61,989 nucleotides of DNA. Origin: Alphaproteobacteria bacterium (GTDB lineage Bacteria; Pseudomonadota; Alphaproteobacteria; MPNO01; VGEU01). Where the stretch lies: contig VGEU01000009.1 in NCBI GenBank assembly GCA_016869145.1, positions 1 through 61,989 on the forward strand, read 5' to 3'. A model generated the notes under the pieces. It saw nothing but the letters and a program-made list of their open reading frames with translations. It made no database searches and had not been told where the DNA came from. This document shows positions 16,687 to 54,312 of this stretch, one piece after another (within the stretch, counting starts at the first letter, position 1; each line of letters opens with the position of its first letter). Position numbers and translations under genes: made by a program.

Positions 16687-16692
16687 GGCCCG

Positions 16693-17139
16693 TCACCACG
16701 CCGGCCAGACGCGGAGCGGAAGCCCGAGCATGCTGACGAACACGACCACCGTGAACGCGGCGAGAAAGACCGCCGTCGCCGCGATCTCGCGCCAGCGCGC
16801 CGTGCCGCCGGCGAAGGCGCTCACCACGACGAGGATCACGACCGCGAGCGCGATACCGCCATCGGGCGCGACCAGCGCGAACAAGACGAGCGCGAGGATG
16901 AGGATCGCGAGCGGGCCGAGCTCGAGCGTCGCGGCCTCGCGGAGGCGATGGACGAAGCCGCGCGCGACGAGGAGAGCGCCGAGCGTCGCGACGATGATCC
17001 CGACGGCTTGGGGGAAGTATCCCGGCCCCATGCGGGCCGGGGTTCCGATCCGGTAGTCGCGGGCGGCGATCGCGAAAAAGACGCCGCAGGCGAGGAAGAG
17101 AAGCCCCGCGCCGAGATCGCGATCGATCCGGATCCGCAC
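16693..17139 (-). CDS. tctB: Tripartite tricarboxylate transporter small membrane subunit TctB
   Basis: A 148-residue membrane protein with four hydrophobic segments (near residues 11-24, 45-60, 75-100 and 115-135). The motif YRIGTPARMGPGYFPQAVG near residue 30 is typical of TctB. Start is GTG 17139 (VRIRIDRDLGAGLLF), 34 bases after the TctC stop at 17174; a longer frame to 17283 would overlap tctC and reads as Arg-rich nonsense. It pairs with TctA to form the permease. Confidence 0.85.
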   Translation of the reverse strand: MRIRIDRDLGAGLLFLACGVFFAIAARDYRIGTPARMGPGYFPQAVGIIVATLGALLVARGFVHRLREAATLELGPLAILILALVLFALVAPDGGIALAVVILVVVSAFAGGTARWREIAATAVFLAAFTVVVFVSMLGLPLRVWPAW

Positions 17140-17173
17140 GGCGAGACGCCGCCCGCGCCCGCGTGATGCGGTC

Positions 17174-18133
17174 CTACTGGTCGCCGAGCCCCGCGGCGCG
17201 CACGAGCGGCGCCCACTTCTTGTCCTCGGCGAGGAGGATGTCGTTCGCCTCCTTGACGCTCGTCGACCACGCCTCGGCGCCAATCTTTTCCATCGCGGCG
17301 ACGAACTCGGGGTCCTTCTGCGCCGCGACGAGCGCCTCGTTGAGCCGCGCCGCGATCGGTGCCGGCGTGCCGGCGGGTCCGGCGAGCGTGGTCCAGATGT
17401 CGATGTTGAAGTTCGGCATCAGCGTCTCGTGGATGGTCGGGATATCGGTCAACCCGGCCGGCCGCTTGAGGCTCGTGGTCGCGATCGCGCGCACGCGGTT
17501 GTCCGCGATGAACGGCCGCGCGCCCGCGATGGAGGAGAAGGCGAGCTGCACCTTGCCCGAGAGCACGTCGGGGAAGGCCGCGCCGATGCCGGGATAGGGC
17601 ACGTGCACGGCCTTGACGCCGACATGGGGCCAGAACTGCTCGGCGCCGAGATGGGGCGCCGTGCCGACGCCGGCGGTCGCGAAGTTGAGCTTGTCCGGGT
17701 TCGCCTTGCCCCACGCGACGAGTTCCTGCGGGGTCCTCACCGGAAAATTGTTCGACACCACGATCACGACCGGCGCGGAGGCGACCATGCCGAAGCTCGT
17801 GACCTCGCCGATCTTGTAGCCGACGTCCTTGCGCATCAGCGGATTGATGACGGTGCCGACGTCCATCACCATGATCGTGTATCCGTCGGGCCTGGTCTTC
17901 GCGATAAACGTCGTCGCGACCGCGCCGGCGGCGCCGGGACGGTTCTCGACCACGATCTGCTGGCCGAGCGTCTTGGTGAGCGCCTGGGCGAGCGCGCGCC
18001 CGGTGAAGTCGACGACGCCGCCCGGCGCATAGCCGAGGACGAGGCGGACCGGCTGGTTCGGATAGGCCTGCGCGTGCGCCGAGGTGACCCCGAGCGCAAC
18101 GCACACGGTCGTGAGCAGCATCTTCAAGAACAT
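17174..18133 (-). CDS. TctC/Bug-family solute receptor of the tctCBA set
   Basis: A 319-residue periplasmic receptor. The signal peptide (residues 1-22) ends near AHAQA. The two ligand loops appear as LVLGYAPGGVVDFTGRAL near residue 31 and ENRPGAAGAVATTFIAK near residue 62. It is the receptor most likely to serve the TctAB pair, being directly upstream on the same strand. The flavoprotein at 18163 is tricarballylate-dehydrogenase-like, so a tri- or dicarboxylate ligand is plausible. ATG 18133 is supported by a typical signal sequence and a GGAG-like site upstream. Confidence 0.92.
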   Translation of the reverse strand: MFLKMLLTTVCVALGVTSAHAQAYPNQPVRLVLGYAPGGVVDFTGRALAQALTKTLGQQIVVENRPGAAGAVATTFIAKTRPDGYTIMVMDVGTVINPLMRKDVGYKIGEVTSFGMVASAPVVIVVSNNFPVRTPQELVAWGKANPDKLNFATAGVGTAPHLGAEQFWPHVGVKAVHVPYPGIGAAFPDVLSGKVQLAFSSIAGARPFIADNRVRAIATTSLKRPAGLTDIPTIHETLMPNFNIDIWTTLAGPAGTPAPIAARLNEALVAAQKDPEFVAAMEKIGAEAWSTSVKEANDILLAEDKKWAPLVRAAGLGDQ

Positions 18134-18162
18134 CGTCCTCTCCTTCGCTCTACTCTCGTCGA

Positions 18163-19644
18163 TCAGTTGCGGCGGATCGCGTCGGCCGCCGAGGCGCCGG
18201 CGAGCCGGCCGAACACCGCGCCTGCCGTGAGTCCCGATCCGCCTGGATAGTTGAAGTAGAAGAGCCCGCCAACGCATTCGCCGGCTGCGAACAGTCCCGG
18301 GATCGGCTTGAGGTCGGTATCGACGACCTGGCCCTCGCGGTTGATGCGCAGGCCGCCGAAGGTGAAGGTGAGACCACAGGTGACGCCATAGCCCTCGAAG
18401 GGCGGCGTGTCGATCGTGTTCGCCCAGTTCGACTTGTCGATCTCGAGCCCCTGGGTGCAGCGTCCGTCCTTGACGTTCGGGTTAAACGGAACGTCGGTGC
18501 GGATGGCGGCGTTATAGGCCTTGATGGTCGCGAGGAAGGCCTTGGGATCGACGCCCTCGAGTTTCCCGGCGAGCTCCTCGATGGTGTTCGCCGTCACCTT
18601 GGTGATCTGGCGGATATTGTATTCGCCGCGCTTGAGGTGGGCGACCTTGGCATCGAGCACCTGCCAGGCGAACTGGCCCGGCTGGTTCAGGATGACGCGG
18701 CCATATTTGGCGTAGGTGTAGTTGCGGAAATCCGCGCCCTCGTCGACGAAGCGCTTTCCTTCCGCGTTCACCATGATGAAGAACGGGTAGGAATGCTTCT
18801 GGAACTGATCGCCGACCGCGAGGTCGCCGAACTCGGGCGCGTTGCGGTCCCAGCCGACCGCGTGGCCACCGGAGAAATTGCCGTAGGATGCGGCCCCGAT
18901 CGCGAGCCCCATGTTGAGACCGTCGCCGGTGTTGAAGCGCGTGCCGCGCACCTTGGCGAGCTCCCAGCCGGGACCGAGATAGCGCGTGCGCATCTCGGGG
19001 TTCGACTGGAACCCGCCGCAGGCGAGGATCACAGCCCTGGCGTGCATGTCGCGGATCTTGCCGTTGCTCTTCACCTTGACGCCGGTGACGTGCACGCCGT
19101 CGTAGAGGAGCTCGACCGCGCGGGTTTCGTAGAACGTCTCGATCCCCTCGCGCGTGGCGGCGTTGGTGAGATACTCGAACAGGCCCGGCCCGCCGCCGTT
19201 CGATTCCACCGTGAGCCCGCCCCAGAACTTGAACTTGCCGTCGATCTTGAACGCCTGGCGGCCATAGATCGGCACGAACTGCACGCCCTTCGACTTCATC
19301 CAGATCAACGTGTCGAGGCTCCGCGTCACCAGCGTCTCGGCCATGTCCGGATCGGTCCGGTACTGGGTGACGCGGAAGATGTCGTCGAAAAACTGGTCCT
19401 GGGTGTAGGTGCCGAAATCGGTCGTCGCGATCTCGGTCTCGGAGAGATCGACGAGCTTCTTGATGTCATCGAGCCCGTTATAGACGACACGCATCGAGCC
19501 TGCGGTGAAGCGCGTGTTGCCGCCCGCCTCGTCCAGCGGCGCGCGCTCGATCATCGCGACCCGCATGCCCTTCTCGCGCGCCGACAGGGCCGCGCAGCCG
19601 GCCGCATTGCCCGCGCCGATCACGATCACGTCATAACTGTCCAT
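18163..19644 (-). CDS. FAD-dependent dehydrogenase, tricarballylate dehydrogenase (TcuA)-like
   Basis: A 493-residue flavoprotein of the succinate dehydrogenase/fumarate reductase flavoprotein fold. FAD-binding GAGNAAG is at residues 10-16, followed by an Glu-containing strand and GGNTRFTAGSMRVVYN near residue 42. The C-terminal FAD motif is PGLFAAGECVGGLFYFNYPG near residue 450. The overall pattern matches TcuA-type tricarballylate dehydrogenases, which oxidise tricarballylate to cis-aconitate. Position next to tctCBA supports uptake and oxidation of a carboxylate. An alternative is a 3-ketosteroid dehydrogenase-like or urocanate-reductase-like role. Confidence 0.8.
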   Translation of the reverse strand: MDSYDVIVIGAGNAAGCAALSAREKGMRVAMIERAPLDEAGGNTRFTAGSMRVVYNGLDDIKKLVDLSETEIATTDFGTYTQDQFFDDIFRVTQYRTDPDMAETLVTRSLDTLIWMKSKGVQFVPIYGRQAFKIDGKFKFWGGLTVESNGGGPGLFEYLTNAATREGIETFYETRAVELLYDGVHVTGVKVKSNGKIRDMHARAVILACGGFQSNPEMRTRYLGPGWELAKVRGTRFNTGDGLNMGLAIGAASYGNFSGGHAVGWDRNAPEFGDLAVGDQFQKHSYPFFIMVNAEGKRFVDEGADFRNYTYAKYGRVILNQPGQFAWQVLDAKVAHLKRGEYNIRQITKVTANTIEELAGKLEGVDPKAFLATIKAYNAAIRTDVPFNPNVKDGRCTQGLEIDKSNWANTIDTPPFEGYGVTCGLTFTFGGLRINREGQVVDTDLKPIPGLFAAGECVGGLFYFNYPGGSGLTAGAVFGRLAGASAADAIRRN

Positions 19645-19674
19645 GTTCCGATCCTCGTTCGTCTTTCGTTGCGT

Positions 19675-20583
19675 TCAGTCGGCGGCGTCGCCGGGCACGA
19701 TGCCGCGCGGCAGGGTTTCGATGTATTCGGCGATCGCGCCGGGCCGCGTGATCCAGACGCGGTCGCGATCGGGATGCGCGGTGATGTGGCGAAGCGCACG
19801 GCGGAGCTGGCGGAGCCGGAACGGCACGCCCGAGCAGAACGTGTGCAGCGAGAGCCCGCACACGAGCGGCTGGCGGGTCGAGAGCTCCAGCATCTCGTCG
19901 AAATGATCGACGATCATGTCGGCGAAGTCGATCGCGGTATGGCGGCGCGACAGCATGGCCGGCGTATCGTTGATCTCGATCGGATAGGGCATCGCGAGGA
20001 TGCGCCCGGCGCGCGTCCGCATCCACACCGGCTGGTCGTCGATCGCCCAGTCGAGGACATAGCGGTAGCCCGCCTCGCGGAGGAGATCGAGCGTCGTCGC
20101 GCTTTCCGAGATCCACGGACCCAGCCAGCCCGCCGGCGTCCGGCCCTCGTGGCGCCGGAACGCATCATTGGTGGTCGCGATCAGCGCCCGCTCCTCGGCC
20201 TCCGGCATCTCGCCCTGCGCCTCGGAATTGGTCACCGCATGGCCGACGAACTCGTCGCCGCGGGCGCGGATGCGGGCCGGAATGGCCGGCGCATGGTCGT
20301 AGATCGCGGCGTTCATCAGGTGGCTCGCCGGCAGCCCGAACTCCTCGAACAGATCGAACAGCCGCCAGATGCCGACGCGGAGCCCGTATTCGCGCCAGCC
20401 GAAATTGCGTATGTCCGGCTGCGGGCCCGGCATGGTCGGGGTGTGGCCGAGCCCTTCGCCGAAGCTGAAATGCTCGATATTGACCGCGACGTAGAAGGCG
20501 AGCCGGCAACCGCCTGGCCAATCGTAGTCGGCGCGATCCCCGATCGGCGCGTAGTCGAAGCGGCCGTGCTGGCGGATCCTCAT
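19675..20583 (-). CDS. Polysaccharide deacetylase (CE4, PuuE-like) family protein
   Basis: A 302-residue cytoplasmic CE4-fold protein. No signal peptide is present. It resembles the PuuE/allantoinase-like branch rather than chitin deacetylases: it starts with a variant DYAPIGDR region, then FYVAVNIEHFSFGEG, has HLMNAAIYDHAPA near residue 88, and LLREAGYRYVLDWAIDDQPV near residue 168. Members hydrolyse amide bonds of cyclic ureides or formamides. In this operon a ring-opening or deformylation step is conceivable, but unproven. It sits between the XDH-type subunit (85 bases away) and the TcuA-like gene (30 bases). Confidence 0.8.
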   Translation of the reverse strand: MRIRQHGRFDYAPIGDRADYDWPGGCRLAFYVAVNIEHFSFGEGLGHTPTMPGPQPDIRNFGWREYGLRVGIWRLFDLFEEFGLPASHLMNAAIYDHAPAIPARIRARGDEFVGHAVTNSEAQGEMPEAEERALIATTNDAFRRHEGRTPAGWLGPWISESATTLDLLREAGYRYVLDWAIDDQPVWMRTRAGRILAMPYPIEINDTPAMLSRRHTAIDFADMIVDHFDEMLELSTRQPLVCGLSLHTFCSGVPFRLRQLRRALRHITAHPDRDRVWITRPGAIAEYIETLPRGIVPGDAAD

Positions 20584-20668
20584 TCCTCTCCCCGGATTGG
20601 CGGCGGCCCTAGGCTAGAGCATGAACCGGCCGGAGGGAACCGCTCGACCGGCCGGATCGACCGACCGA

Positions 20669-23002
20669 TCAACCGGGCCGGGCCCCGCGGACGATCGCGA
20701 CGAGATCGGACGGCGAGACCGGGGCACCGGTGAGCCGCGCGCCGAACGGCGCCAGCGCGTCCTCGATCGCCGCGACGATGGCGGCCGCGGCCGGCACCGT
20801 GCCGCATTCGCCGACCCCCTTGACGCCGAGCGGGTTGAGCGGCGACGGCGATTCGTGATGGATGAGCTCGATCCGCGGCATCTCGGTGGCGGTGATCAGA
20901 AGATACTCGCCGAGATTGGTGGTGAGCGGCTGGCCGCCGTCGTCATAGCGCATCCACTCGAACAGCGTGTTGCCGATGCCGTGCGCGGCACCGCCGATGA
21001 CCTGGCCGTCGACGATCGTCGGGTGGATGAGGACGCCCGAATCGTGCGCCATGACGTAGCGGAGGATGGTGACCGCACCGGTGTCCGGATCGACTTCGAC
21101 CTCGGCGACGGCGGTGCCGTTGGCGAACGTCATGTTGTCGATCACGAGCTCCTCGGTCGCCTCCATGCCGGGGCTGACGCCGGGCGGCAGCGAATAGCCG
21201 GGCGTGCCGACGACCGCGTGGCCGAGCTTGGCGAGCGGCACCTTGAGGTCGGGGACACCCTTCACCCGCACCTCGCGGCCGACGATCTCGAGATCGTGCT
21301 CGGCGGCCTCGAGCATGTGCGCCGCGACCTTGAGGAGCTTGTCGCGCACCCGGCGCGCGGCGACGTGGGCGGATGACCCCGCCATCACGGCCTGGCGGCT
21401 GTTCGAGCCGCCGAGACCGTTGGCGATGGTCGCGGTGTCGCCGCACACGACCTCCACGTTGCCGATGTCGCCGCCGATCTCCTCGGCGACGATCTGGGCG
21501 AGCATCGTCCGCGTGCTCTGGCCCATCGCGGCGGCGCCGGAATAGACGAGGATCCGACCCGAAGGCCCAATGCGCACGGTCGCGGATTCGAACGGGCCGC
21601 GGCCGGTGCCCTTCACGTAGTTGGCGACGCCGATCCCGATGTGACGGCCCTCGGCGCGGGCCGCGCGCTGGCGCGCCGGAAACTGGTCCCAGCCGGCGGC
21701 GGCGAGAGCGCTGTCCTGGCACTCCGGAAAATTGCCGCTGTCGAGGAGGACCGGCATGCCGCCACGGGTCTGCAAGGGCTGGGTGAACGGCATGAGATCG
21801 CCCGGAATGAGGTTCCGCCGCCGCACCTCGACCCGGTCGAGGCCGAGCTCGCGCGCGACCCGGTCGAGAAGGCGTTCCATCGCGAACACGCCCTGCGGGT
21901 GTCCTGCGCCACGCACCGGTGTCACCGGCACCTTGTTGGTGAGCGCGAGCCGCACCGCCATCCGATAGGCCGGCACGATATAGGGCAGCGGCACCGTTTC
22001 GGCGGCGTTGTAGGGGAGATTGACGCCGCGCGCGGTATAGGCGCCGTGGTCGTGGATGATCTCGCCACGGATCGCAAGGATCTTCGCGTCGTCGTCGACC
22101 GCGATCTCGACGTCGAGATACTGGTCGCGCTCCTGCGTGGTCGCGACGAAGTGCTCACGCCGGTCCTCGATCCATTTGATCGGCGCGCCGACGAAGATCG
22201 AGGCGAGTCCGAGACCGACGTCCTCGGGGTAGAAGACGAGCTTCGGCCCGAACCCGCCGCCGACATCGGGCGTGGCGACGCGGATGCGCCGCTCGTCCCA
22301 ACCCAGCATGTCGACGAGGACGCGCATCGCGACATGCGGCATCTGTGTCGACGACCAGAGCGTCAGCTTCTCCTCGTTTCGGTCATAGTTGGCGACGCAG
22401 CCGCGGCACTCGATCGAGTGGCTGCCGCCGCGGTGCATCCAGAGCGTCTCGCGGAACCGGTGCGGCGCGCGCGCGAACGCCGCATCGACCTCGCCGAACG
22501 CCATGGTGAACTCGGCGAGGACGTTGTGCGGTGCATCGGCGTGGACCCGCGCTGCGTCTGGCTTCAGCGCGTCGCGGCAGTCCGAGACCGATGGCAGCGG
22601 CCGGTAGTCGACCGCGACCTGGGCGGCCGCGTCCTCGGCATCGTAGCGCGATCCCGCGACGACGATCGCGATCGGCTCGCCGACATGAACCGTCTCCGTG
22701 CCGGCGAGCACTGGGCGGTTGCGGTCCTGCCGGTAGGACGCGGACGGCAGGCCGACGACCATCCGCTCGTTGGCGAGATGCGGGCGGAGATCGTCGAGCG
22801 TGAGGACCGCGCGAACCCCCGGACGCGCCAGCGCCGCGGCCTTGTCGATGCCGGCGATCGCGGCGTGCGGATGTGGGCTCCGCACGAAGGCCGCGTGGAG
22901 CATGCCGTGAAGCCGGATATCGTCGACGAAGCGCGCGCGCCCCGCGACGAGTGCCGGATCCTCGAGGCGCGGAACACGGACGCCGAAAACCTTGCCGGTC
23001 AC
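20669..23002 (-). CDS. Molybdopterin-binding subunit, xanthine dehydrogenase / CoxL family
   Basis: A 777-residue catalytic subunit of a molybdenum hydroxylase. The N-terminal domain starts GKVFGVRVPRLEDPALVAGR and contains RFVDDIRLHGMLHAAFVRSP. Mo-cofactor contacts include DVGGGFGPKLVFYPED near residue 245, PVRGAGHPQGVFAMERLL near residue 355 and GVKGVGECGTVPAAAAIV near residue 735, the last with the catalytic Glu. Such enzymes hydroxylate aldehydes or N-heterocycles with water. The 2Fe-2S and FAD subunits are absent from the window. Start is GTG 23002, 26 bases after the UbiD stop; a frame to 23419 overlaps ubiD. Confidence 0.9.
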   Translation of the reverse strand: MTGKVFGVRVPRLEDPALVAGRARFVDDIRLHGMLHAAFVRSPHPHAAIAGIDKAAALARPGVRAVLTLDDLRPHLANERMVVGLPSASYRQDRNRPVLAGTETVHVGEPIAIVVAGSRYDAEDAAAQVAVDYRPLPSVSDCRDALKPDAARVHADAPHNVLAEFTMAFGEVDAAFARAPHRFRETLWMHRGGSHSIECRGCVANYDRNEEKLTLWSSTQMPHVAMRVLVDMLGWDERRIRVATPDVGGGFGPKLVFYPEDVGLGLASIFVGAPIKWIEDRREHFVATTQERDQYLDVEIAVDDDAKILAIRGEIIHDHGAYTARGVNLPYNAAETVPLPYIVPAYRMAVRLALTNKVPVTPVRGAGHPQGVFAMERLLDRVARELGLDRVEVRRRNLIPGDLMPFTQPLQTRGGMPVLLDSGNFPECQDSALAAAGWDQFPARQRAARAEGRHIGIGVANYVKGTGRGPFESATVRIGPSGRILVYSGAAAMGQSTRTMLAQIVAEEIGGDIGNVEVVCGDTATIANGLGGSNSRQAVMAGSSAHVAARRVRDKLLKVAAHMLEAAEHDLEIVGREVRVKGVPDLKVPLAKLGHAVVGTPGYSLPPGVSPGMEATEELVIDNMTFANGTAVAEVEVDPDTGAVTILRYVMAHDSGVLIHPTIVDGQVIGGAAHGIGNTLFEWMRYDDGGQPLTTNLGEYLLITATEMPRIELIHHESPSPLNPLGVKGVGECGTVPAAAAIVAAIEDALAPFGARLTGAPVSPSDLVAIVRGARPG

Positions 23003-23028
23003 GTGCGTGCGAACCCGTCGGTCGCCGC

Positions 23029-24465
23029 CTAGGCGTCGCGCGGGAGCATGCTCTTGAACTTCGCACGGATTCGGTCGTCGAGCTGGCGCGAGGAGCGCGC
23101 AACGACCGGGAACGTGTCGCGGCGGTTGAACGGCCGGCAGGCGTCGATCACCACGCGCGCGTTCCGCCGGTCGTCCTCCGAATAGACCATCGGGTCGAGA
23201 TGGGTCGACCAGCAGCCGCGCAGGATCTCGGCGCCCTCGCGCGGGTCGAAGCGCGTGCACATCGCCCAGATCACGTCGTTCATGTTGGCGGGGTCGATGT
23301 CGTCGTCGACAACGACCACCCAGCGGTTGGCGTAGGCGCCCGCGTGACACTGCGAGGCGACGATTCCGGCCTGTTTCGCGTGGCCGCCATAGAGCTGCTT
23401 GATCGAGATGGTGAGCCACATTCGGCTGCCACCCGCCTCATGCGCCCACACGCCCTTGACCTCGGGAATGCCGGCCGCCTCGAGCTGGTTCCACACCGCG
23501 CCGCAGCGATAGGTGCCACGGTAGAAGGTGTCGTCGTTGGGCGGCACCGCCGGTACCGCGCCGAGGAGGATCGGGTCGTTCCGGAACATCATCGTCTCGA
23601 CCCGGATGGCGGGCTCGAGCTTCTTGCCGCCGGCATAGTATCCGGTCCACTCGCCGAGCGGCCCCTCGTCGACGAGGTCGTCGGGGTGGATCCAGCCCTC
23701 GAACGCGATCTCGGCATGCGCCGGGATGGGAAGCCCGGTGACCGGGCCGTTGACGATCTCGACCGGCTCGCCGAGGAGGCCGCCCGCGAGATCATACTCG
23801 TTCTTGCCGTAGGGCATCTCGAGGCCGGCCACCATGAACAACGCGGGATGCATGCCGCAGATGACCGCGACGGGGCATTTCTCCCCGCGCTCCTTGTAGC
23901 GCTGCATGATGATGTTGCCGTGCTTGCCCTTCGAGGTCATCACCGAGGCGACGTTCTTGTCGTGCACCTGGACGCGATAGGCGCCGTAGTTGATCCAGCC
24001 CGAATCGGGATCCTTCATGATCACCATGCACGCGGTACCGATGAAGTAGCCGCCGTCGTGCTCGTGCCACTTGGGCGTCGGAATGCGCCACAGATCGACG
24101 TCCTTGCCCTTGAGCACGTTCTCGAGCACCGAGCCGCCATTGATCACCTTGGGGGCGATCATCGGCGTCTCCTTCATGTATTTCCGCCAATAGTTGACGA
24201 GTGTGATCTCCGAGGAATCGACCGGCAGCCCGAGCGTCAGGTTGATCCGCCGCACCGAGGTGAGGAGGTTGGCCAGCACGCGGTGGCCGCGCGGGAATCC
24301 CGGGATGTCGTCGAACAGGACGGCGGGATTGCCCATCTTGCGCTGGTGGATGTCGACGATGCCGCCGATCTCGACCTCGCGCTCTGCGCCCTCGACCTTC
24401 TGGACCTCGCCGTTCTCCTCGAGAAGGGTGAGCCAGCTCCGCAGATCCTGCTTGGTGTTCTTCAT
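23029..24465 (-). CDS. UbiD-family prenylated-FMN decarboxylase, copy 1
   Basis: A 478-residue UbiD-type (de)carboxylase. Members use prenylated FMN made by UbiX to decarboxylate aromatic or alpha,beta-unsaturated acids. Diagnostic parts are GWINYGAYRVQVHDK near residue 157 and EGPLGEWTGYYAGG at 267-280, which holds the catalytic Glu residues. NPDD-type cofactor residues occur in PVTGLPIPAHAEIAFEG. No ubiX is present in the window. It is a clear paralogue of copy 2 directly upstream (24486-25928), sharing long identical stretches such as PTPKWHEHDGGYFIGTAC. ATG 24465 lies 20 bases after the stop of copy 2. Confidence 0.93.
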   Translation of the reverse strand: MKNTKQDLRSWLTLLEENGEVQKVEGAEREVEIGGIVDIHQRKMGNPAVLFDDIPGFPRGHRVLANLLTSVRRINLTLGLPVDSSEITLVNYWRKYMKETPMIAPKVINGGSVLENVLKGKDVDLWRIPTPKWHEHDGGYFIGTACMVIMKDPDSGWINYGAYRVQVHDKNVASVMTSKGKHGNIIMQRYKERGEKCPVAVICGMHPALFMVAGLEMPYGKNEYDLAGGLLGEPVEIVNGPVTGLPIPAHAEIAFEGWIHPDDLVDEGPLGEWTGYYAGGKKLEPAIRVETMMFRNDPILLGAVPAVPPNDDTFYRGTYRCGAVWNQLEAAGIPEVKGVWAHEAGGSRMWLTISIKQLYGGHAKQAGIVASQCHAGAYANRWVVVVDDDIDPANMNDVIWAMCTRFDPREGAEILRGCWSTHLDPMVYSEDDRRNARVVIDACRPFNRRDTFPVVARSSRQLDDRIRAKFKSMLPRDA

Positions 24466-24485
24466 GACCGTGACGACCCTTCCCC

Positions 24486-25928
24486 TCAGCTCTTCGGCAA
24501 TACGTGCGACCACTTGGCCTTGATCCGGTCGTCGAGCGCCTTGGACGACCGCGCGACGATCGGGAACGTGTCGCGGCGGTTGAACGGACGGCACGCGTCG
24601 ATCACGACGCGGGCATTCCGCCGGTCGGTGTCGCCGTCATAGCACATCGGATCGAGATGGGTAGACCAGCAGCCGCGGATGATCTCCATGCCTTCGCGCG
24701 GGTCGAAGCGCGTGCACATGGCCCAGATCACGTCGTTGATGCTGGTCGGATCGATGTCGTCGTCGACGACGACGGTCCAGCGGTTGGCGTAGGCTCCGGC
24801 GTGGCATTGCGAGGCGATCAGGCCGGCCTGTTTCGAATGCCCGCCATAGAGCTGCTTGATCGCGACCGTGGTCCACATCCGGCTGCCGCCGGCCTCATGC
24901 GTCCAGACGCCCTTGATCTCGGGCACGCCCGCGGCCTCGAGCTGGTTCCAGATCGCGCCGCAGCGATAGGTCCCGAGATAGAAGGTGTTGTCGTTCGGCG
25001 GCACCGCCGGGATCGCGCCGACGATGATCGGATCGTTGCGATACATCAGGGTCTCGATCCGAATCGCGGGCTCGGGGCGCTGGCCGCCCGCGTAGTAGCC
25101 CGTCCATTCCCCGAGCGGGCCCTCGAGCACCTCGTCGTTGGGGTGGATGTAGCCCTCGAACGCGATCTCGCTGTAGGACGGAACGGGCAGCCCGGTCTTG
25201 GGCATCGCGATGACCTCGACCGGCTCGCCGAAGATTCCGCCGGCCGCGTCGTACTCGCTCTTGCCGTACGCGACCTCGAGCCCCGCCAGCATGAAGATCG
25301 CGGGGTGCACGCCGGCGACGACCGCGACCGGGCAGGGCTCACCGCGCTCATGGAACTTGCGCATGATCAGGCGGCCGTGCTTGCCGGGCGACATCATCAC
25401 GGTCGCGACGCGCGGCTCGTGCACCTGGACGCGATAGGCGCCGTAGTTCACCCAGCCGGTGTCGGGGTCCTTCATGATCACGAGGCAGGCCGTGCCGATG
25501 AAATAGCCGCCGTCATGCTCGTGCCACTTGGGCGTCGGGAACTTGAGGATGTCGACCTTCGCACCCTCCTCGACGTTCTCGAGCACAGGCCCCCCGTTGA
25601 CCGTCCGCGGCTTGTGGGTCGGAGCATTCCGCATATAGCTCCGCCACCACTGGATCAGCTCCATCTCGGAGCCGGTCGCCTTGATGCCGAGCGCCTGGTT
25701 GATGCGCTGGGTCGAGGTCAGGATGTTGGCGAGCACGCGCTGTCCCTTGGCGAAGCCCGGGACCTCATCGAACATCAGAGCCGGATTGCCCATCTTGCGC
25801 ATCGAGAGATCGAGGACGCCGCCGATCTCCTCGTCGCGGTCGGCGCCCCGGATATGTGTGACGTCGCGCGACTCCTCGACCTGGGCGAGCCAGAATCGGA
25901 GGTCCTGCTTTGACATGTTGGCAATCAT
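24486..25928 (-). CDS. UbiD-family prenylated-FMN decarboxylase, copy 2
   Basis: A 480-residue UbiD-type enzyme with the same motifs as copy 1 (GWVNYGAYRVQVHEP, EGPLGEWTGYYAGG). Differences concentrate in the N-terminal 130 residues and in scattered surface positions, so the two may act on different acids or form a hetero-oligomer. ATG 25928 is preceded by GGGAGAG; ATG 25916 (MSKQD) is an alternative that aligns better with copy 1. The 119-base gap to the ThDP gene is the longest in the minus-strand run and could hold an internal promoter. Confidence 0.93.
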   Translation of the reverse strand: MIANMSKQDLRFWLAQVEESRDVTHIRGADRDEEIGGVLDLSMRKMGNPALMFDEVPGFAKGQRVLANILTSTQRINQALGIKATGSEMELIQWWRSYMRNAPTHKPRTVNGGPVLENVEEGAKVDILKFPTPKWHEHDGGYFIGTACLVIMKDPDTGWVNYGAYRVQVHEPRVATVMMSPGKHGRLIMRKFHERGEPCPVAVVAGVHPAIFMLAGLEVAYGKSEYDAAGGIFGEPVEVIAMPKTGLPVPSYSEIAFEGYIHPNDEVLEGPLGEWTGYYAGGQRPEPAIRIETLMYRNDPIIVGAIPAVPPNDNTFYLGTYRCGAIWNQLEAAGVPEIKGVWTHEAGGSRMWTTVAIKQLYGGHSKQAGLIASQCHAGAYANRWTVVVDDDIDPTSINDVIWAMCTRFDPREGMEIIRGCWSTHLDPMCYDGDTDRRNARVVIDACRPFNRRDTFPIVARSSKALDDRIKAKWSHVLPKS

Positions 25929-26047
25929 CGCACTCTCCCAAGAGGCGCGCGCCGCGCGCCGCCGCAACCGTTCGTCGCGGTCGGTGATAGCGGGAAATCG
26001 GCCCGGCGTAAACGTGTCCGCGCGCGAAACCGGCCGGCTGCGAACGC

Positions 26048-27745
26048 TCAGGGGTCGATGACGACGTTAAGGATCGCGGTGCGGCCGTCGAGCGTCGCCC
26101 GGTGCGCGTCGCGGAGCGCCGGGACCAGAGCCGCCGGATCCTCGACCCGCCGGCCCCAGCAGCCGAACGGCTCGCCGAGCGTCGCATAATCGGGCCCGCC
26201 GATCGGCGCGCCGTACCAGAGGTCGTGCTGGTGCGCGACGCCGTCGGGGTAGTAGTCCTCGTGGTTGTCGCGCATCGCGCGGTACTGGTTGTTGTTGTAG
26301 ATGACGATGATGATCGGCAGCCCGGCGCGCTGGGCGTAGCCGAGGCTCTGCGTCACCGGGTTGTAGAGGAACGAGCCGTCGCCGATCAGCGACACGACCG
26401 GCCGGTCGCGGAGCGCGAGCTTGACGCCGATGGCGTGGCCGAGCCCCTGGCCGAGCCCGCCGCGCACCTTGAAGAAGCTCTGTGGCCCCTTATTGCGGAG
26501 ATGCGCCTCGACGACGCCGCGATGGGTCACGGTCTCGTCGACATAGGCCGTGTTCCCGGGGAGCGCCTCGGCGAGCGCCGCGGTGAGCGCGATCGGGTGG
26601 ATCGGCGTCTTCGTCCGCGCCGCGGCGACCGCCGCGAGCCGGTCGGCGTCGTTCTTGCGATGGGCGGCCGCATGGCGCGCGCGGCGCTCCTCGATCGCGG
26701 CCGAGGCCGGCCGCGCGGCGCCGACGGCGGCGGCGAGCGTCTCGATCGTGAACGCGACGTCGCCCTCCAGCACCGTATCGGCGTGGAGGTTCTGGTAGAC
26801 CATGTGGTGGCGGAACGGGTTGTCGTCGATCAGGACGATGTGCGCATTCGGTGGCCGCCGGCTCGGCGGGTACCACGGCGCGCGGCTCCGGATCACGAGC
26901 ACGAGGTCGGCGGTCTCGAAGAACGGCTTGAAGCTCGGCCCCTGGTGCAGCTCGTGGTCCTTCGGGAAGTTGGAGAAGATCGACGACGGCGTCTCGACGA
27001 CCGGAATCGCGAGCGCCTCGGCGAGCGCGAGGAGCGTCGCATAGGCGGCCGGCTGGCGCGCCGCCGCCTCGGTCGTGATCACCGGGTTCTTCGCCGCCAG
27101 GAGGTGCTCGGCGACGCGCTCGATCTCGGCGAGCGGCGCGCGGGGTGCGATCGGCGCGGGCGCCAGCGCGAGCGGCGCCGGCTTCTTCCACTCCTGCAGC
27201 ATCGTCTCGATCGGGACGTTGAGATAGACCGGCCCCATCGGCGTGCGCTGCGACATCTGGCCGGCGCGCACCACGCTCTCGTAGAGCGTGTCGGCGCTCG
27301 GTACCTGGCCGGAGAACTTGACATAAGGCTCGACCAGCCGCTGCGGTCCGCCGACGACCGAGAGATTCTGGTACCATTGCTGGCCGGGGTCGAAACCGTC
27401 GCGCTCGCCATAGGTGAGCGCCTCGCCCGACATCACGAGCATCGGGATGTTCTGGATGTGCGCGGCATGGATGCCGACCGAGCCCTGGAGAAGGCCGACG
27501 CCGGCGTGCAGCATCACCACCTGCATGCGCCCGGTCGCCATCGTGTAGCCGATCGCCATGTCGGCGGCGAGGGTCTCGTGCCAGCAGCTCAGATATTCCG
27601 GCCCCGGCGTCTTGTCGACGGTCTGTCGCGCGAGCGCTTCCCACACCGACCCCCATTCCGAGCCGGGGGACGACATGATGTAGTCGACGCCGAGATTGCG
27701 GAACGCCTGGAGGATCGCGTCACCGCCATCAAGATAGTTTTTCAT
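26048..27745 (-). CDS. Thiamine-diphosphate enzyme, acetolactate synthase-like
   Basis: A 565-residue ThDP enzyme. The activating Glu is E57 in SCWHETLAADMAIGY; the ThDP/Mg motif runs from SLIGDGSFLYNP to IVIYNNNQYRAM near residue 455-490. The PYR, central and PP domains are full length. It differs clearly from the ThDP enzyme at 7984. In this operon, between a TctC receptor and two UbiD genes, it may decarboxylate or ligate a 2-oxo acid intermediate. The exact reaction is unknown. Confidence 0.87.
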   Translation of the reverse strand: MKNYLDGGDAILQAFRNLGVDYIMSSPGSEWGSVWEALARQTVDKTPGPEYLSCWHETLAADMAIGYTMATGRMQVVMLHAGVGLLQGSVGIHAAHIQNIPMLVMSGEALTYGERDGFDPGQQWYQNLSVVGGPQRLVEPYVKFSGQVPSADTLYESVVRAGQMSQRTPMGPVYLNVPIETMLQEWKKPAPLALAPAPIAPRAPLAEIERVAEHLLAAKNPVITTEAAARQPAAYATLLALAEALAIPVVETPSSIFSNFPKDHELHQGPSFKPFFETADLVLVIRSRAPWYPPSRRPPNAHIVLIDDNPFRHHMVYQNLHADTVLEGDVAFTIETLAAAVGAARPASAAIEERRARHAAAHRKNDADRLAAVAAARTKTPIHPIALTAALAEALPGNTAYVDETVTHRGVVEAHLRNKGPQSFFKVRGGLGQGLGHAIGVKLALRDRPVVSLIGDGSFLYNPVTQSLGYAQRAGLPIIIVIYNNNQYRAMRDNHEDYYPDGVAHQHDLWYGAPIGGPDYATLGEPFGCWGRRVEDPAALVPALRDAHRATLDGRTAILNVVIDP

Positions 27746-27776
27746 CGGTCGTGCACTCCTGCGTGCCGGGCGTGCG

Positions 27777-28766
27777 TCATTCCGGCTTGATGTCGGCGTC
27801 CTTGATGACCTTCGCCCACTTGGCGACCTCGCGTTCGATGACAGCGGCGAAGGCGGCAGGCGTCACGGGTGGCGACAGCTCGAATCCCGTCGTCGTGAGG
27901 CGCTGGCGCACGTCGTCCATCGCGAGCACGACCTGGACCTCCTTGGCGAGCCGTTCGACGACCGCGGCGGGAAGTCCGGCCGGTCCGACCAGCGGGAAGA
28001 ACGTCGTCACCTCGAAGTCGGGATAGCCCTGCTCGGCAAAGGTCGGAACCTTGTTCCACTGCGGCACGCGCGCGCGCCCCGTCGCGCCGAGCGCGCGGAG
28101 CTTGCCGGCCTCGAGGTGGGGGCCGGCGATCACATAGCTTCCGAACATCATCGGCACGCGGCCGGCGACCACGTCCTGCGTCATCGGTCCGCCGCCGCGA
28201 TAGGCGACGTGCACGATGTCGAGGCCGGCGGTGAGCTTGAGGAGCTCCATCGCGAGATGGTGCGGCGTGCCGTTGCCCGGCGTCGCATAGTCGAACTTGC
28301 CCGGGTTCGCCTTCACGTGCGCGACGAACTCGGCAAGGGTTGCCGCCGGAAACGACACGTGGACGTTGAGGAGAAGGGTCTGGCCCGCGAGCATCGAGAT
28401 AGCCGTGAAGTCGCGCACCGGGTCGAAGCCCGCGTCCTTGGAGAGCGCCGGACCGACCGTGTAGCCCGGATGATTGCCGACCATCAGCGTGTAGCCGTCG
28501 GCCGGCGCCTTGGCGACGAAATTGGCGGCAAGGTTGCCGCCGCCACCGGGCCTGTTCTCGATCACGACCGGCTGGCCGAGGAGGGACGCGAGCTTATCGC
28601 CGACGAGGCGGCCGACCACGTCCGTCGCGCCGCCCGGCGCGAACGGGATCACGAACCGGATCGGCTTCGACGGCCAGGCCTGGGCCGCAGCGCCCGCGCC
28701 GTGGCCGATTGCAAGGACGAGAGCCAAGACCGCAAGACCAGCGGCCCGAACGATTCCGCGCGTCAT
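27777..28766 (-). CDS. TctC/Bug-family solute receptor, second copy of the minus-strand run
   Basis: A 329-residue periplasmic receptor with a long signal peptide (residues 1-30, hydrophobic core LAVLALVLAIGHG). Ligand loops appear as RFVIPFAPGGATDVVGRL near residue 37 and ENRPGGGGNLAANFVAK near residue 75. It is 31 bases from the ThDP gene and more than 9 kb from tctAB, so either the operon supplies two receptors for one permease or this one uses a permease elsewhere. Confidence 0.9.
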   Translation of the reverse strand: MTRGIVRAAGLAVLALVLAIGHGAGAAAQAWPSKPIRFVIPFAPGGATDVVGRLVGDKLASLLGQPVVIENRPGGGGNLAANFVAKAPADGYTLMVGNHPGYTVGPALSKDAGFDPVRDFTAISMLAGQTLLLNVHVSFPAATLAEFVAHVKANPGKFDYATPGNGTPHHLAMELLKLTAGLDIVHVAYRGGGPMTQDVVAGRVPMMFGSYVIAGPHLEAGKLRALGATGRARVPQWNKVPTFAEQGYPDFEVTTFFPLVGPAGLPAAVVERLAKEVQVVLAMDDVRQRLTTTGFELSPPVTPAAFAAVIEREVAKWAKVIKDADIKPE

Positions 28767-28833
28767 CGCCGCCCTCCCTTGTGGCCGACCCGGATGCTGG
28801 AGCCGCGCCGGGCCCGAGTCAACGCAGACCTGC

Positions 28834-29850
28834 TCAGCCGAAGGTGAAGCGGCTCCCGATGTTCGACGTCACCACCTTGTCCGGCATGCGCTCGCGCGCC
28901 GCCGCGATGAAGCTCGGCCCACTGCAATGCATCGGCACGACGACGTCCGGCGCGAGCGCCTCGAGCGCATCGACCGTGTGCTGGATGTAGTCGAGCGGTG
29001 CCGGCCCGAGATGGAAGCCGCCGAGCACGGCATGGAGCTTCCGTACATTCGAAACCGCCATCGCGGTCCGGATCGTGTTGATCAGCCCGGCATGACCACA
29101 GGACGAGATCACGGCGAGCCCTTTGCCCTGGATCACGTAGCAGGTCGCGTGCTCGTCGGGATGCTGATCCGGCTGCAGCTTGCCGCGACGCTCGGCCTCG
29201 GTGAAGTGGTCGTCGTCCTCCTCGCCGACCAAGGTCGAGGGCAGGAGCCGCTCGAAGCTCGTCCGCTCGATATAGCCCGACGAGAACGGCCCCTCGAGCG
29301 CATGCGGCGCGTGGCAGCAGTGGGTCGCGACGTGGTGGACGGCAAGCGCGGCACGGTCGAGCGCGCCCCACGACATCGGGCTGCCGCCCCCTTCCTTGCC
29401 GCCGATCCATTTTTCGCGGAAGGCATCGTCGGCCCCGACATGGAGCGTGAGATCACCAGGCATGTCGCCGCGGTAGCGTTCGACGAATCCGAGCAGGCCG
29501 CCATAGTGGTCGCGGTGGCCGTGCGACAGGATCAAGCCCTTGATCCGCTTGGGATCGATCGCGAGGAGATCGAAGTTGCGGTTGAGCACCTCGGGCGTGT
29601 AGCCGAAGTCGAGCAGGTATTCCGCCTTGGTGCCCGCGCGCACCGATTCGAGATGAAGCGACAGCCCCCACTCGCCGGCAAGCGTCGACATCTGCCGGCC
29701 GCGGATCTGACGCGTGTGCTCGATCGTGCATGCCGGATGGGCCGCATCCCTGATGAAGCGCTCATAGAAGGAATCGACCACCACCCTGACGGCGAGCCGA
29801 TCGACGACCGGTGCAGCGAAGGGCTTCAACGTTGCGAGCTCGAGGGTCAT
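28834..29850 (-). CDS. Metallo-beta-lactamase-fold hydrolase
   Basis: A 338-residue MBL-fold protein. The metal motif is SHGHRDHYGG at residues 109-118, with further candidate ligands in HHVATHCCHAP, VISSCGHAGLINTIR and LGGFHLGP. The arrangement with a late SSCGHAG motif resembles the Tflp/7,8-dihydropterin synthase-like MBL branch (COG1237). It is the first gene of the 12-gene minus-strand run and is divergent from the luciferase-like gene; its promoter must lie in the AT-rich interval 29851-30003. ATG 29850 is chosen because farther upstream the frame runs into the operator. Confidence 0.83.
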   Translation of the reverse strand: MTLELATLKPFAAPVVDRLAVRVVVDSFYERFIRDAAHPACTIEHTRQIRGRQMSTLAGEWGLSLHLESVRAGTKAEYLLDFGYTPEVLNRNFDLLAIDPKRIKGLILSHGHRDHYGGLLGFVERYRGDMPGDLTLHVGADDAFREKWIGGKEGGGSPMSWGALDRAALAVHHVATHCCHAPHALEGPFSSGYIERTSFERLLPSTLVGEEDDDHFTEAERRGKLQPDQHPDEHATCYVIQGKGLAVISSCGHAGLINTIRTAMAVSNVRKLHAVLGGFHLGPAPLDYIQHTVDALEALAPDVVVPMHCSGPSFIAAARERMPDKVVTSNIGSRFTFG

Positions 29851-29939
29851 GGCGCAACTCCCGGTTTGGGCGCCGGGCGGCACCCCCGAAACCGTACACT
29901 TGCGGACGTCGGGCGCAAGCGCTCCGGGAATCGGCGCTA

Positions 29940-29968
29940 TTGACCCGGCATATATTTGCATTTACAAA
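29940..29968 (+). promoter_or_regulatory. Candidate sigma70 promoter for the luciferase-like/MarR pair
   Basis: TTGACC at 29940-29945 matches the -35 consensus at five positions. TACAAA at 29963-29968 is an acceptable -10. The spacer is 17 bases. The start region lies about 35 bases before ATG 30004. The -10 element falls inside the inverted repeat at 29956-29982, so bound repressor would block the polymerase. Confidence 0.5.
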
Positions 29969-29982
29969 TATTGTGAATGCAA
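29956..29982. promoter_or_regulatory. 27-bp inverted repeat, likely MarR operator
   Basis: Left arm TTGCATTTAC (29956-29965), spacer AAATATT, right arm GTGAATGCAA (29973-29982). The arms are reverse complements with one mismatch, and the AATATT centre is itself palindromic. This is the most AT-rich stretch in a very GC-rich window. It lies between divergent genes, and the operon on its right encodes a MarR regulator (31086), so autoregulation plus control of the minus-strand run is the simplest reading. Confidence 0.65.
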
Positions 29983-30003
29983 TTAACAACCGGGGTTCGC
30001 GCC

Positions 30004-36231: not shown

Positions 36232-37908
36232 ATGGCCGCGAAGCCGCGCATCGCCCATCTCACGGGTGCCAACGCGACGATCCAGAACTCGCCGCCGCTC
36301 GTCACGAGCAACAAGGCGCGCGCCCAGTATGGTCTGCCGATCCGCCGCGAGGCGGATGGGAGCGTGCCGCGCTTCGACATCCTCCGCGCGCAGCGGCTCG
36401 CCGCACCCGCGGTGGTCTATGTCGAGCAGTTCAGCGCGCACCCGCTCGAGCGCGACGCGGCGGAGCTCTATGCGCCGCCCGACGGCTATCTCGACAAGGA
36501 CAAGCGCTTCTCCAAGACGCGGACGCAGGCCGACGACAAGCCGGTCTATCGCATCGAGCTCAGGCCCGAGGACGGCCTCTATCCCCTTCCCTACATGGCG
36601 CGCCAGGCCGACGGCGGCGCGTGGGAGGACGACTGCGCCTTCCCCGGCGCGCCGGCGGAGAAGGCGCGGCAGGCCTATTACCCTGACGGCTCGCGGCTGT
36701 TCGAGGAGATCGACCGCCTCGGCGTCGGCGACAAGGGGACCGGCAACCTGATCGCCTCGCGCGCCGATATCGACTTCTTCCGTGTCCTGCCGTCCGGCGG
36801 CTACACCAAGGGCCTGCCGGCGCGCGAACGAACCGACGTCGGCGAGGGCGATATCGCACCCGAGAGGCTCGGCCGCGACTTCTTCCCCTACCGGCCGAAC
36901 CACCTCGCCGTGTCGCCGCCGCGGCCCGCGCTCGCCAAGATCACCAACGAGGTCCAGGCGATCCTCGCCTCGGGCACCTATCTCGGTGCGATCTGGACGC
37001 AGGGCAGCCCGCGCGTCGAGGAGACCGTCTACTGGTTCAATCTCCTCCTCGACACGACGCTGCCGGTCTGCGGCAACGCGGCCCAGCGCACCCACGGCGA
37101 GATCTCGAACGATGGCCCGAAGAACATCGTCGATTCGGTCGACTACATCACCTCGCGCGTGTGGGCCGACCGCGCCGGACGCAATCGCGCCGGCATGGTG
37201 CTGATCCAGGAGCAGCAGATCTTCGCCGCGCGCGACGTGCAGAAGGGCGATGCACGCCCCGGTGGCTACGTGACGACCGGCGGCCACGGCGGGCTCCTCG
37301 GCGCGGTGCGCCACGGCGAGCCCCCGGTCCTCACCTATCTCCCCGGAACGCGTCACAGCTATCTGTCGGAGGTCAACCTCACCCGCCTGCCGGCCTCCGT
37401 CACCGGGCTTCGCGGCGCGGCCGTCGCGATCAAGGACCAGCTCGGCCGGCTCACCGCCGGCGCGATCGCGCGGGTCGCGATCGTCAAGGACGGCAACTAC
37501 ACACCCGACGCGCACGACAGCGGCCCCGAGCGCGAGGTCGATATCATCGCCCTCCTCGAGCACAACGCCCGCCACGAGGGGCTCGCCGGCTTCGTCGTCG
37601 AGGGCCAGTCGCCCTACGGCTCGATGACCAATGCCGTGCGGCACGCGCTGATGCGCCGGGCGGTCTATTCGGGCATGCCGGTCGCCCGCGTCGGTCGCGG
37701 CAACAATGACGGCTTCAGCCCGGGCACGCCCGAGCTCATCGGCGGCGGCAATCTCACCGCGACCAAGGCGCGGCTCCTCCTGATGGCATGCCTGATGAAG
37801 TTCGGCGCACTGCCCGCCGCCGCCGATCCCGACCGGCCGAACGCAACCGAGAAGGCCGCCGTCGCGGCGAAGGTCGCCGCATACCAGGCCGTCTTCGATA
37901 CCCACTGA
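36232..37908 (+). CDS. Asparaginase-fold protein with large insertion and altered catalytic motif
   Basis: A 558-residue protein related to type I/II asparaginases. The N-terminal strand and loop HLTGANATIQN (9-19) corresponds to the TGGTIA loop. The second motif, normally HGTDTMEET, reads QGSPRVEET at 257-265, so the catalytic Thr-Asp pair is Ser-Pro. SNDGPKNIVDSV (292-303) matches the Lys-containing SADGPxN region. The C-terminal part GRGNNDGFSPG then LIGGGNLTATKARLLLM near residue 520 is clearly asparaginase-like. Between the first two motifs lie about 240 residues instead of about 77, so roughly 165 residues are inserted. Activity may differ from amide hydrolysis. The stop lies in the 13-bp repeat. 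Confidence 0.7.
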   Translation: MAAKPRIAHLTGANATIQNSPPLVTSNKARAQYGLPIRREADGSVPRFDILRAQRLAAPAVVYVEQFSAHPLERDAAELYAPPDGYLDKDKRFSKTRTQADDKPVYRIELRPEDGLYPLPYMARQADGGAWEDDCAFPGAPAEKARQAYYPDGSRLFEEIDRLGVGDKGTGNLIASRADIDFFRVLPSGGYTKGLPARERTDVGEGDIAPERLGRDFFPYRPNHLAVSPPRPALAKITNEVQAILASGTYLGAIWTQGSPRVEETVYWFNLLLDTTLPVCGNAAQRTHGEISNDGPKNIVDSVDYITSRVWADRAGRNRAGMVLIQEQQIFAARDVQKGDARPGGYVTTGGHGGLLGAVRHGEPPVLTYLPGTRHSYLSEVNLTRLPASVTGLRGAAVAIKDQLGRLTAGAIARVAIVKDGNYTPDAHDSGPEREVDIIALLEHNARHEGLAGFVVEGQSPYGSMTNAVRHALMRRAVYSGMPVARVGRGNNDGFSPGTPELIGGGNLTATKARLLLMACLMKFGALPAAADPDRPNATEKAAVAAKVAAYQAVFDTH

Positions 37909-38626: not shown

Positions 38627-40117
38627 ATGGCCACGCCCAACGCCTTCAAGATCGTCGAGACCACCATCGCCGAGATCCACGCCGCCTATCGCGCCGGGGT
38701 TCTCACCGCGCGCCAGCTCGTGCAGATGTATCTCGACCGCATCGAGGCCTATGACAAGAAAGGCCCGGCGATCAACGCGCTGGTCTCGCTCAACCCGAAG
38801 GCGCTCGAGGAGGCCGACCGTCTCGATGCCGCCTGGCGCGCCAAGGGCCCGGTCGGCCCGCTGCACGGCATCCCGCTGATCATGAAGGACCAGGGCGACG
38901 TCAAGGAGATGCCGACGACGCTGGGCTCGGTCCTGTTCAAGGGCCACATGCCGGGCCGCGATTCCTTCGTCGTCGCCCGGCTCAAGGAGGCCGGCGCGAT
39001 CTTCCTCGGCAAGGCGACACTCGGCGAGCTCGGCGCCGGCGACACGCACGGTTCGCTGTTCGGCTCGACGCGGAACGTCTACGACCTCGAGCGCACCGCC
39101 GGCGGCTCGTCCGGCGGCTCGGGCGCGGCGGCCTCGGCCAATTTCTGCGCCGTCGCGATCGGCCAGGAAGGCTTCGCCTCGATCCGCCGCCCGGCGATCT
39201 GGAACGGCGTCGTCGGCATGCGCCCGACCGCGGGCCTCGTCAGCCGCGGCGGCGTCTTCGCCGGGTGGCCGTCGATCAACGGCTCGCTCGGTCCGATGGC
39301 GCGGACGGTGACCGACCTCGCTTTGGTGCTCGACAGTATGGTCGGCTACGACCCGACCGACCCGATCACCGCCCGCGGCGTCGGCCATGCGCCCAAGAGC
39401 TACGCCGCGCTCCTCGACAAGGGCGCGCTCAAAGGCGCACGGATCGGCATCCTGCGCGAGCCGATCGGCTTCGATACCGAGCCCGGCTCGCAGGACTTCC
39501 ACCGCGTGACCGAGGTCTTCGACAAGGCGGTCGCCGACATCCGCGCCGCCGGCGCCGAGATCGTCGATCCGGTGGTCATACCCGACCTCAATCGCCTCCT
39601 CGCACTCCGCGCCGGATCGAACGAGGACGAGGACGATTCGTTCCGCGAATACGTCAAGGGAAGCGCCAATCCGCCGTTCGCGACGCGGCGCGAGGCGATG
39701 GCCTCTCCGCTCTTCCAGCAAGTGCTCCGCAGCAACCGGGCGCGCTGGGAGAAGAACCACACGCCCGAGGCGCATCACGGCTATCTCAAGGCGCGCGAGC
39801 TCCTGATGACGCTGTTCCTCAAGGTCATGGCCGACTACCGGCTCGACGCCATCGTGCACAAGGCGGTCGAGCACACCGCGACCCTGATCAAGGACGGCGT
39901 CAACCCGCCCTTCGTCGACCAGAAGGGCGTGCCGCACCTCAACACGTTCCTGGTCTTCGTGCCGTCGATCGTGGTGCCGGCCGGCTTCACGAAGGACAAC
40001 CGGGCGGCCGGGATCACGTTCCTCGGCCGGCCCTATGACGACGCCAACATGATCCGCTTCGCCTATGCCTATGAGCAGGCGACGCGGCACCGCCGCGCGC
40101 CGACGGCGACGCCGTGA
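38627..40117 (+). CDS. Amidase-signature enzyme, second copy
   Basis: A 496-residue amidase-signature enzyme. The triad is visible: Lys in LIMKDQGD near residue 85, cis-Ser in AGGSSGGSGAAASANF near residue 160, and the nucleophile in GQEGFASIRRPAIW near residue 185. GFAS replaces the usual TGGS, a variant seen in several family members. Residues 230-400 form a longer insert than in the copy at 12909. It would hydrolyse a small amide in the cytoplasm. GGAGAGACAC lies just upstream of ATG 38627. Confidence 0.88.
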   Translation: MATPNAFKIVETTIAEIHAAYRAGVLTARQLVQMYLDRIEAYDKKGPAINALVSLNPKALEEADRLDAAWRAKGPVGPLHGIPLIMKDQGDVKEMPTTLGSVLFKGHMPGRDSFVVARLKEAGAIFLGKATLGELGAGDTHGSLFGSTRNVYDLERTAGGSSGGSGAAASANFCAVAIGQEGFASIRRPAIWNGVVGMRPTAGLVSRGGVFAGWPSINGSLGPMARTVTDLALVLDSMVGYDPTDPITARGVGHAPKSYAALLDKGALKGARIGILREPIGFDTEPGSQDFHRVTEVFDKAVADIRAAGAEIVDPVVIPDLNRLLALRAGSNEDEDDSFREYVKGSANPPFATRREAMASPLFQQVLRSNRARWEKNHTPEAHHGYLKARELLMTLFLKVMADYRLDAIVHKAVEHTATLIKDGVNPPFVDQKGVPHLNTFLVFVPSIVVPAGFTKDNRAAGITFLGRPYDDANMIRFAYAYEQATRHRRAPTATP

Positions 40118-53877: not shown

Positions 53878-54312
53878 ATGGACGCCGTGCCCGAGCCGGC
53901 CCACTACCGGCTCGACGACCAGATCGGCCACCTCCTCCGCCGCGTCTACCAGCGCGCCGCGGCCAATCTCGCGAGCCGGCTCGAGCCACATGGCCTGACA
54001 CCGGTTCAGTATGCCGTGCTGGCGCGCCTCGCCGAGACCGGACCGATGTCGCAGAACCGCCTCGGCCGGCTGGTCGAGATGGAGCAGTCCAATATCCACG
54101 GCGTCGCGCTCCGCCTCGCCCGCCGCGGCTTGATCCGCCGGAGCCGCGATCCCGACGACCGCCGCCTCACGCTCCTCGTGCTGACGGCCGAGGGCCGTCG
54201 GCTCGTCGATGCGCTGATCCCGATCTCGACCGCCGCGAGCGCGGCGACGCTCGCCATCCTCGCGCCCGATGAGCGCGCGGCGCTGATCGGTCTCCTCCGC
54301 CGCCTCCTCTGA
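53878..54312 (+). CDS. MarR-family transcriptional regulator, second copy
   Basis: A 144-residue winged-helix regulator. Core: LEPHGLTPVQYAVLARLAET near residue 40, recognition helix in RLVEMEQSNIHGVALRLARR near residue 65, wing SRDPDDRRLTLLVLTAEGRR. It starts 2 bases after the nitroreductase stop, so the two form an operon, and probably regulates it through the palindrome at 53042. It converges with the methyltransferase gene, 7 bases apart. Confidence 0.9.
   Translation: MDAVPEPAHYRLDDQIGHLLRRVYQRAAANLASRLEPHGLTPVQYAVLARLAETGPMSQNRLGRLVEMEQSNIHGVALRLARRGLIRRSRDPDDRRLTLLVLTAEGRRLVDALIPISTAASAATLAILAPDERAALIGLLRRLL

Follow-up and report, generated by a model that had tools for sequence, protein, structure and literature searches.

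A putative autoregulatory operator of a MarR-family regulator at the promoter of a luciferase-like monooxygenase operon in an alphaproteobacterium

In the 61,989 nucleotides of alphaproteobacterial DNA analysed here (the window), a 27-bp inverted repeat lies at the promoter of an operon that encodes a luciferase-like monooxygenase (LLM) and a MarR-family protein, and the sequence evidence makes it very probable that this repeat contains the operator of the adjacent MarR, acting on its own LLM-MarR operon. The most fitting reading is a pair of 12-bp near-palindromes placed over the -10 box and start region of the LLM gene. Judged from sequence, the element is a dedicated autoregulatory operator, that is, part of an ordinary local circuit of a well-known kind (the autoregulatory MarR operator). 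The case for function is strong because of the conservation of this element among relatives and not because of the repeat itself.

The intergenic region spans exactly 29851-30003 (153 bp), from the MBL-fold gene on the minus strand to the LLM gene on the plus strand. The repeat within it reads TTGCATTTACAAATATTGTGAATGCAA, with 11 of 13 pairs matching; its arms, TTGCATTTAC and GTGAATGCAA, differ by one mismatch, and two further pairs within them match too. The first-pass annotation had described this repeat, a promoter overlapping it (TTGACC, 17 nucleotides, TACAAA) and a MarR gene as the second gene to the right, and all three were found at these positions (Table 1). A search against Rfam detected no RNA family between 29000 and 31000.

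Table 1. Coordinates of the putative operator, the promoter and the flanking genes in the window
Feature	Position	Strand	Remarks
MBL-fold protein heading the minus-strand run	28834..29850	-	Pfam Lactamase_B, E 1e-7
-35 box TTGACC, promoter of the luciferase-like/MarR operon	29940..29945	+	
27-bp inverted repeat	29956..29982	.	sites 1 and 2 head to head
Candidate operator site 1, TTGCATTTACAA	29956..29967	.	core of the 16-bp ATTTGCATTTACAAAT, 29954-29969
-10 box TACAAA	29963..29968	+	largely within operator site 1
Candidate operator site 2, TTGTGAATGCAA (reverse complement TTGCATTCACAA)	29971..29982	.	centre 15 bp from site 1
Luciferase-like (LLM class) flavin-dependent monooxygenase, 361 aa	30004..31089	+	PF00296, E 3e-56
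MarR-family repressor, 172 aa	31086..31604	+	PF01047, E 3.7e-12, above cut-off

The start codon of the MarR gene overlaps the stop codon of the LLM gene (ATGA), so the promoter at which the repeat sits belongs to the operon of the regulator itself. The MarR protein has the winged helix-turn-helix domain of the family, its recognition helix is SIDISTLSR (residues 63-71), and its closest MarR paralogue in the genome shares 31% identity with it. The LLM protein scores under all the NCBIfam family cut-offs shown; its best match is to the MupA/Atu3671-type luciferase-like monooxygenases (TIGR04020), at 134 bits against a cut-off of 244.

The conservation of the element was evaluated in LLM relatives. 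When GTDB genomes were scanned with the LLM protein, 79 loci were obtained, most of them with a close LLM gene, and a few more were taken from genomes of the same order; the comparison set consisted of 58 non-redundant relatives, of which 24 (the window's own counted) have a MarR gene at most 2 kb away and 34 do not. The upstream regions of relatives share the element ATTTGCAnnTRCAAAT. Its core, TTGYN4RCAA, was defined on these same loci and sought in the 200 bp upstream of LLM, and it was present in 18 of the 24 MarR-linked relatives and in none of the 34 unlinked ones (Fisher p 3e-10, a value that ignores the kinship of the loci). MarR linkage is clustered on the LLM tree, although several changes are needed to explain it, and since the loci are related this p overstates their independence. 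The conservation upstream of orthologous MarR operons that the first-pass annotation had named as a check is thus borne out for the core. Among the other MarR-linked loci, five (5/24) carry the variant GTGCN4GCAC and the last one (L005) carries TTGCAGTATCAA. The sole unlinked locus with this GTG variant (L046) lies on a contig that gives only 242 bp upstream, and a further unlinked locus (L067) has a related element (TTGAATTTACAA/TTGCAAATTCAA) on a contig that stops inside the LLM gene; in both, a MarR gene could not be seen because the contigs end there.

In a close pair of LLM relatives (end branches 0.016 and 0.014), one locus (L009) has both the MarR gene and the core and the other (L037) has neither, which shows, as far as the sequences tell, that the two were gained or lost together. 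The core keeps its place upstream of LLM irrespective of where the MarR gene lies (downstream, divergent, or upstream in the same orientation). Among loci collected later with a MarR profile, the core was detected in L109, which is near the earlier loci, and in L114, L116, L118 and L124, and with one mismatch in L119; the stretches available for L113 and L110 stop short of the upstream region. The TTG core was absent from 12 more distant MarR relatives (L125-L136), most of which have other recognition helices. Four proteins with the STLSR helix and no LLM neighbour (L120-L123) have no such core nearby in non-coding DNA and may have other targets. Separately, in L117 a perfect core (ATTTGCAATTGCAATT) occurs just beyond a MarR gene without an LLM neighbour, 536 bp after the start of that gene, so further genes may be under the control of this MarR clade.

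The first-pass annotation had treated the 27-bp repeat as the unit, but what is conserved is a core of 12-16 bp. In the window both cores have the form TTG-N6-CAA and are mutually inverted (TTGCATTTACAA and TTGCATTCACAA), with centres 15 bp apart. The 16-bp form of site 1 is identical in L052 and L053, where it is placed between divergent MarR and LLM genes. A second core matching at least 6 of 8 positions occurs at exactly +15 in 7 of 26 related loci (shuffled flanks gave a mean of 0.1 and at most 3), and L124 is also a two-core locus in which the second core is a direct copy; the remaining relatives have a single good core. As the two-site form is limited to these loci, the second site may be dispensable. 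It was also considered whether an imperfect (ACAA-type) core is always accompanied by a second site. This was the case in 7 of 9 such loci of the first set, against 0 of 17 others, and L114 and L116, in which an ACAA core stands alone, break the rule and leave only a tendency.

The association of the core with a promoter is repeated in relatives. Of 26 related loci, 15 have TTGAC in the 50 bp preceding the core, compared to 3.8% of random positions, and TTGAC[AC]-17-TACAA[AC] is also present in L011, L016 and L067; a scan for consensus promoters at a strict threshold gave no match. In most relatives with a recognisable -35 box the operator starts 3-8 nt past the first base of the -10 box, and in L058 it starts 17 nt past it. 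In the window site 2 starts at +8 on this scale, like the single operators of most relatives, and site 1 at -7.

The type of operator varies with the recognition helix. Loci with the TTG core have the helix x-S-TLSR, while the five with the GTG core have R-T-TLSR. The GTG type forms one clade on the MarR tree and requires a single change there, while the LLM tree requires two, indicating that operator type follows the regulator and not the enzyme. As this correlation derives from a single evolutionary switch, it is suggestive and not a statistical proof. In SlyA, Ser62, Val64 and Arg65 of this helix contact bases (PMC4737184); in our own alignment they correspond to T68, S70 and R71 of the window MarR. 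Based on these observations, a composite hypothesis can be put forward tentatively, as plausible though somewhat short of probable: that the operator combines two dimer sites, with centres 15 bp or about one and a half helical turns from each other, of which one covers the -10 box and the other lies at the start region (an arrangement found in several lineages), and that in this regulator clade a change of the neighbouring recognition-helix residues I66/S67 to R/T turns the outer T-A base pair of the operator into G-C. If the specificity switch is true, the double substitution I66R/S67T would gain binding to the GTG operator (GTGCAAATGCAC) and lose binding to the TTG operator.

Taken alone, the palindrome is not significant window-wide: the window has 14 palindromes of equal quality (11/13), where first-order resampling leads one to expect about 9. 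Locally, P is about 0.01-0.02, whether the 153-bp intergenic region or the AT-rich island in it is taken. This abundance would suit a functionless chance palindrome in an AT-rich promoter, an explanation that the conservation of the core and its statistical linkage to MarR render extremely improbable, barring an artefact of locus sampling. A different question is which protein reads the site. The genome encodes eight further MarR homologues and the motif was assigned by association; even so, recognition by another regulator of this genome instead of the adjacent MarR is very unlikely, as both the presence and the type of the core track the presence and clade of the adjacent MarR. The search elsewhere in the genome that the first-pass annotation had suggested detected no copy of the repeat or core besides the site at 29956-29982, so there is no wider regulon with these patterns, and a core that occurs once fits a local regulator. 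As to the mode of recognition, the whole 27-bp repeat might be the recognition unit of one dimer, given its symmetry here and a similarly wide symmetry in L039. This is improbable, since most relatives have the 12-16 bp core alone, lacking the outer symmetry, and since the cores in L016 and L124 are near-direct repeats with the same 15-bp spacing, meaning that wide symmetry is not what is conserved.

The first-pass annotation had further proposed that one regulator controls both the monooxygenase operon and a 12-gene catabolic run on the minus strand. The first part is supported by the conservation of the core with MarR; the second found no such support. By gene call the run comprises 11 genes (15187-29850), encoding MBL, TctC, a TPP enzyme, two UbiD, a molybdenum hydroxylase large subunit, a deacetylase-like protein, a TcuA-like protein, TctC, TctB and TctA. 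Control of the run and the LLM-MarR operon from the same MarR site would be in line with the location of the site between divergent starts, with a minus-strand promoter-like match that overlaps the palindrome (TTCACA-17-TATATG, 9/12), with the operators of L049, L052 and L053, which lie between divergent MarR and LLM genes, and with CouR, for which one operator was reported to serve two divergent promoters (PMC4737184). Nevertheless, dual control is rather unlikely. The minus-strand match is at chance level, equal matches being found in 11-21% of resampled sequences, and some 105 bp separate the site from the MBL start. For eight tested proteins of the minus-strand run no divergent homologue was found beside an LLM-MarR pair in any relative, the nearest being a TctC homologue 4.8 kb off in L052, so that this run is seen adjoining the pair in this genome only. 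Nine MBL homologues in other genomes have no core in their 300 bp upstream and no LLM or MarR gene nearby. The gene upstream of LLM varies among relatives, including a HAD hydrolase (L016), an EamA transporter (L019), a TPP enzyme (L039) and a nitrile hydratase (L063), according to translations read by eye. The MBL-fold gene is thus probably outside this circuit. The position of the site would allow control of the run, but these results give no support for it, and the tempting claim of shared control over the large catabolic run is removed as unsupported.

Within the run, the two tandem UbiD-type decarboxylases (23029-25928) are phenylphosphate carboxylase beta-like, scoring 290-294 bits against a 469-bit cut-off, and they share the run with the TPP enzyme, the molybdenum hydroxylase subunit and the TctABC transporter genes.

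In the circuit that we infer for the LLM-MarR operon, a MarR dimer would bind the 12-bp core TTG-N6-CAA, which in the window is present twice, over the -10 box and over the start region. Bound MarR would shut out RNA polymerase and keep both enzyme and repressor low. It would be released on binding an inducer, which is probably a small compound, aromatic or carboxylic, that belongs to the pathway. Repression is suggested by the position of the operator and by the MarR family; activation would also be compatible with the sequence.

The nearest solved relatives of the MarR set include 3CDH and MarR_73/IadR (profile of the set, E 9e-26 for MarR_73). IadR/MarR_73 of Variovorax paradoxus CL14 (PDB 7KFO and others) is a repressor of a catabolic locus that leaves DNA on binding an aromatic acid, and its contacts with IAA include Ser28, His32, Trp45 and Arg46 (PMC9613470). 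Its ligand contacts Trp45-Arg46 align with W41-R42 of the window MarR, whereas the carboxylate contacts Ser28 and His32 are not kept, being V24 and G28 here (counted along the alignment), and its target genes are different. Of the carboxylate contacts expected of IadR/IacR auxin regulators (equivalents of Ser28, His32 and Arg46), only the arginine is retained, within the W-R pair that aligns. By analogy, the ligand of the window MarR may be an aromatic or carboxylic compound. The best NCBIfam match of the window MarR is HpaR (TIGR02337), also a MarR repressor of a catabolic operon, but the score of 63.4 bits is below the cut-off of 121.2 and hpa genes are not seen beside the LLM-MarR pair. CouR of Rhodococcus jostii is a MarR repressor with an inverted-repeat box over promoter elements, one box lying between two divergent promoters (PMC4737184). 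The CouR box, cATTGA-N5-TCAATg, lies over the -35 element, while in the window TTG-N6-CAA lies over the -10 box and start region, in two copies.

Besides LLM and MarR, no conserved neighbours are shared past small groups of close loci. In two loci (L016 and L110), a RidA-like (YjgF) gene is apparently located between LLM and MarR, followed by ABC transporter genes (DNA read by eye). An LLM gene beside RidA recalls RutA/RutC, a pyrimidine-degrading pair, and by this analogy the adjacency is a possible hint to the substrate class. The window itself has two RidA-family genes (PF01042; 40237-40641 and 43087-43401), an amidase-like gene (38627-40117, start read by eye) and an asparaginase-like gene (36232-37908), all within about 12 kb of the LLM-MarR pair. 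A second MarR-family gene of the window (53878-54312) lies near ATP synthase genes; its best match is BagL/FevM, below the cut-off. The nearest LLM relatives (L011, L059 and L067) come from MAGs labelled Candidatus Odyssella, a label that looks doubtful because of their kinship with catabolic loci of a free-living type.

In the papers covered, a literature search found nothing relevant on LLM-MarR operons and no description of the motif, the latter being weak evidence of novelty. Altogether, the analysis provides a candidate operator motif for a MarR clade that is associated with luciferase-like monooxygenases and occurs mostly in Alphaproteobacteria; with this motif, regulon membership would be predictable from sequence. 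The contrast between the R-T and x-S recognition helices may offer a compact test of how MarR specificity changes.
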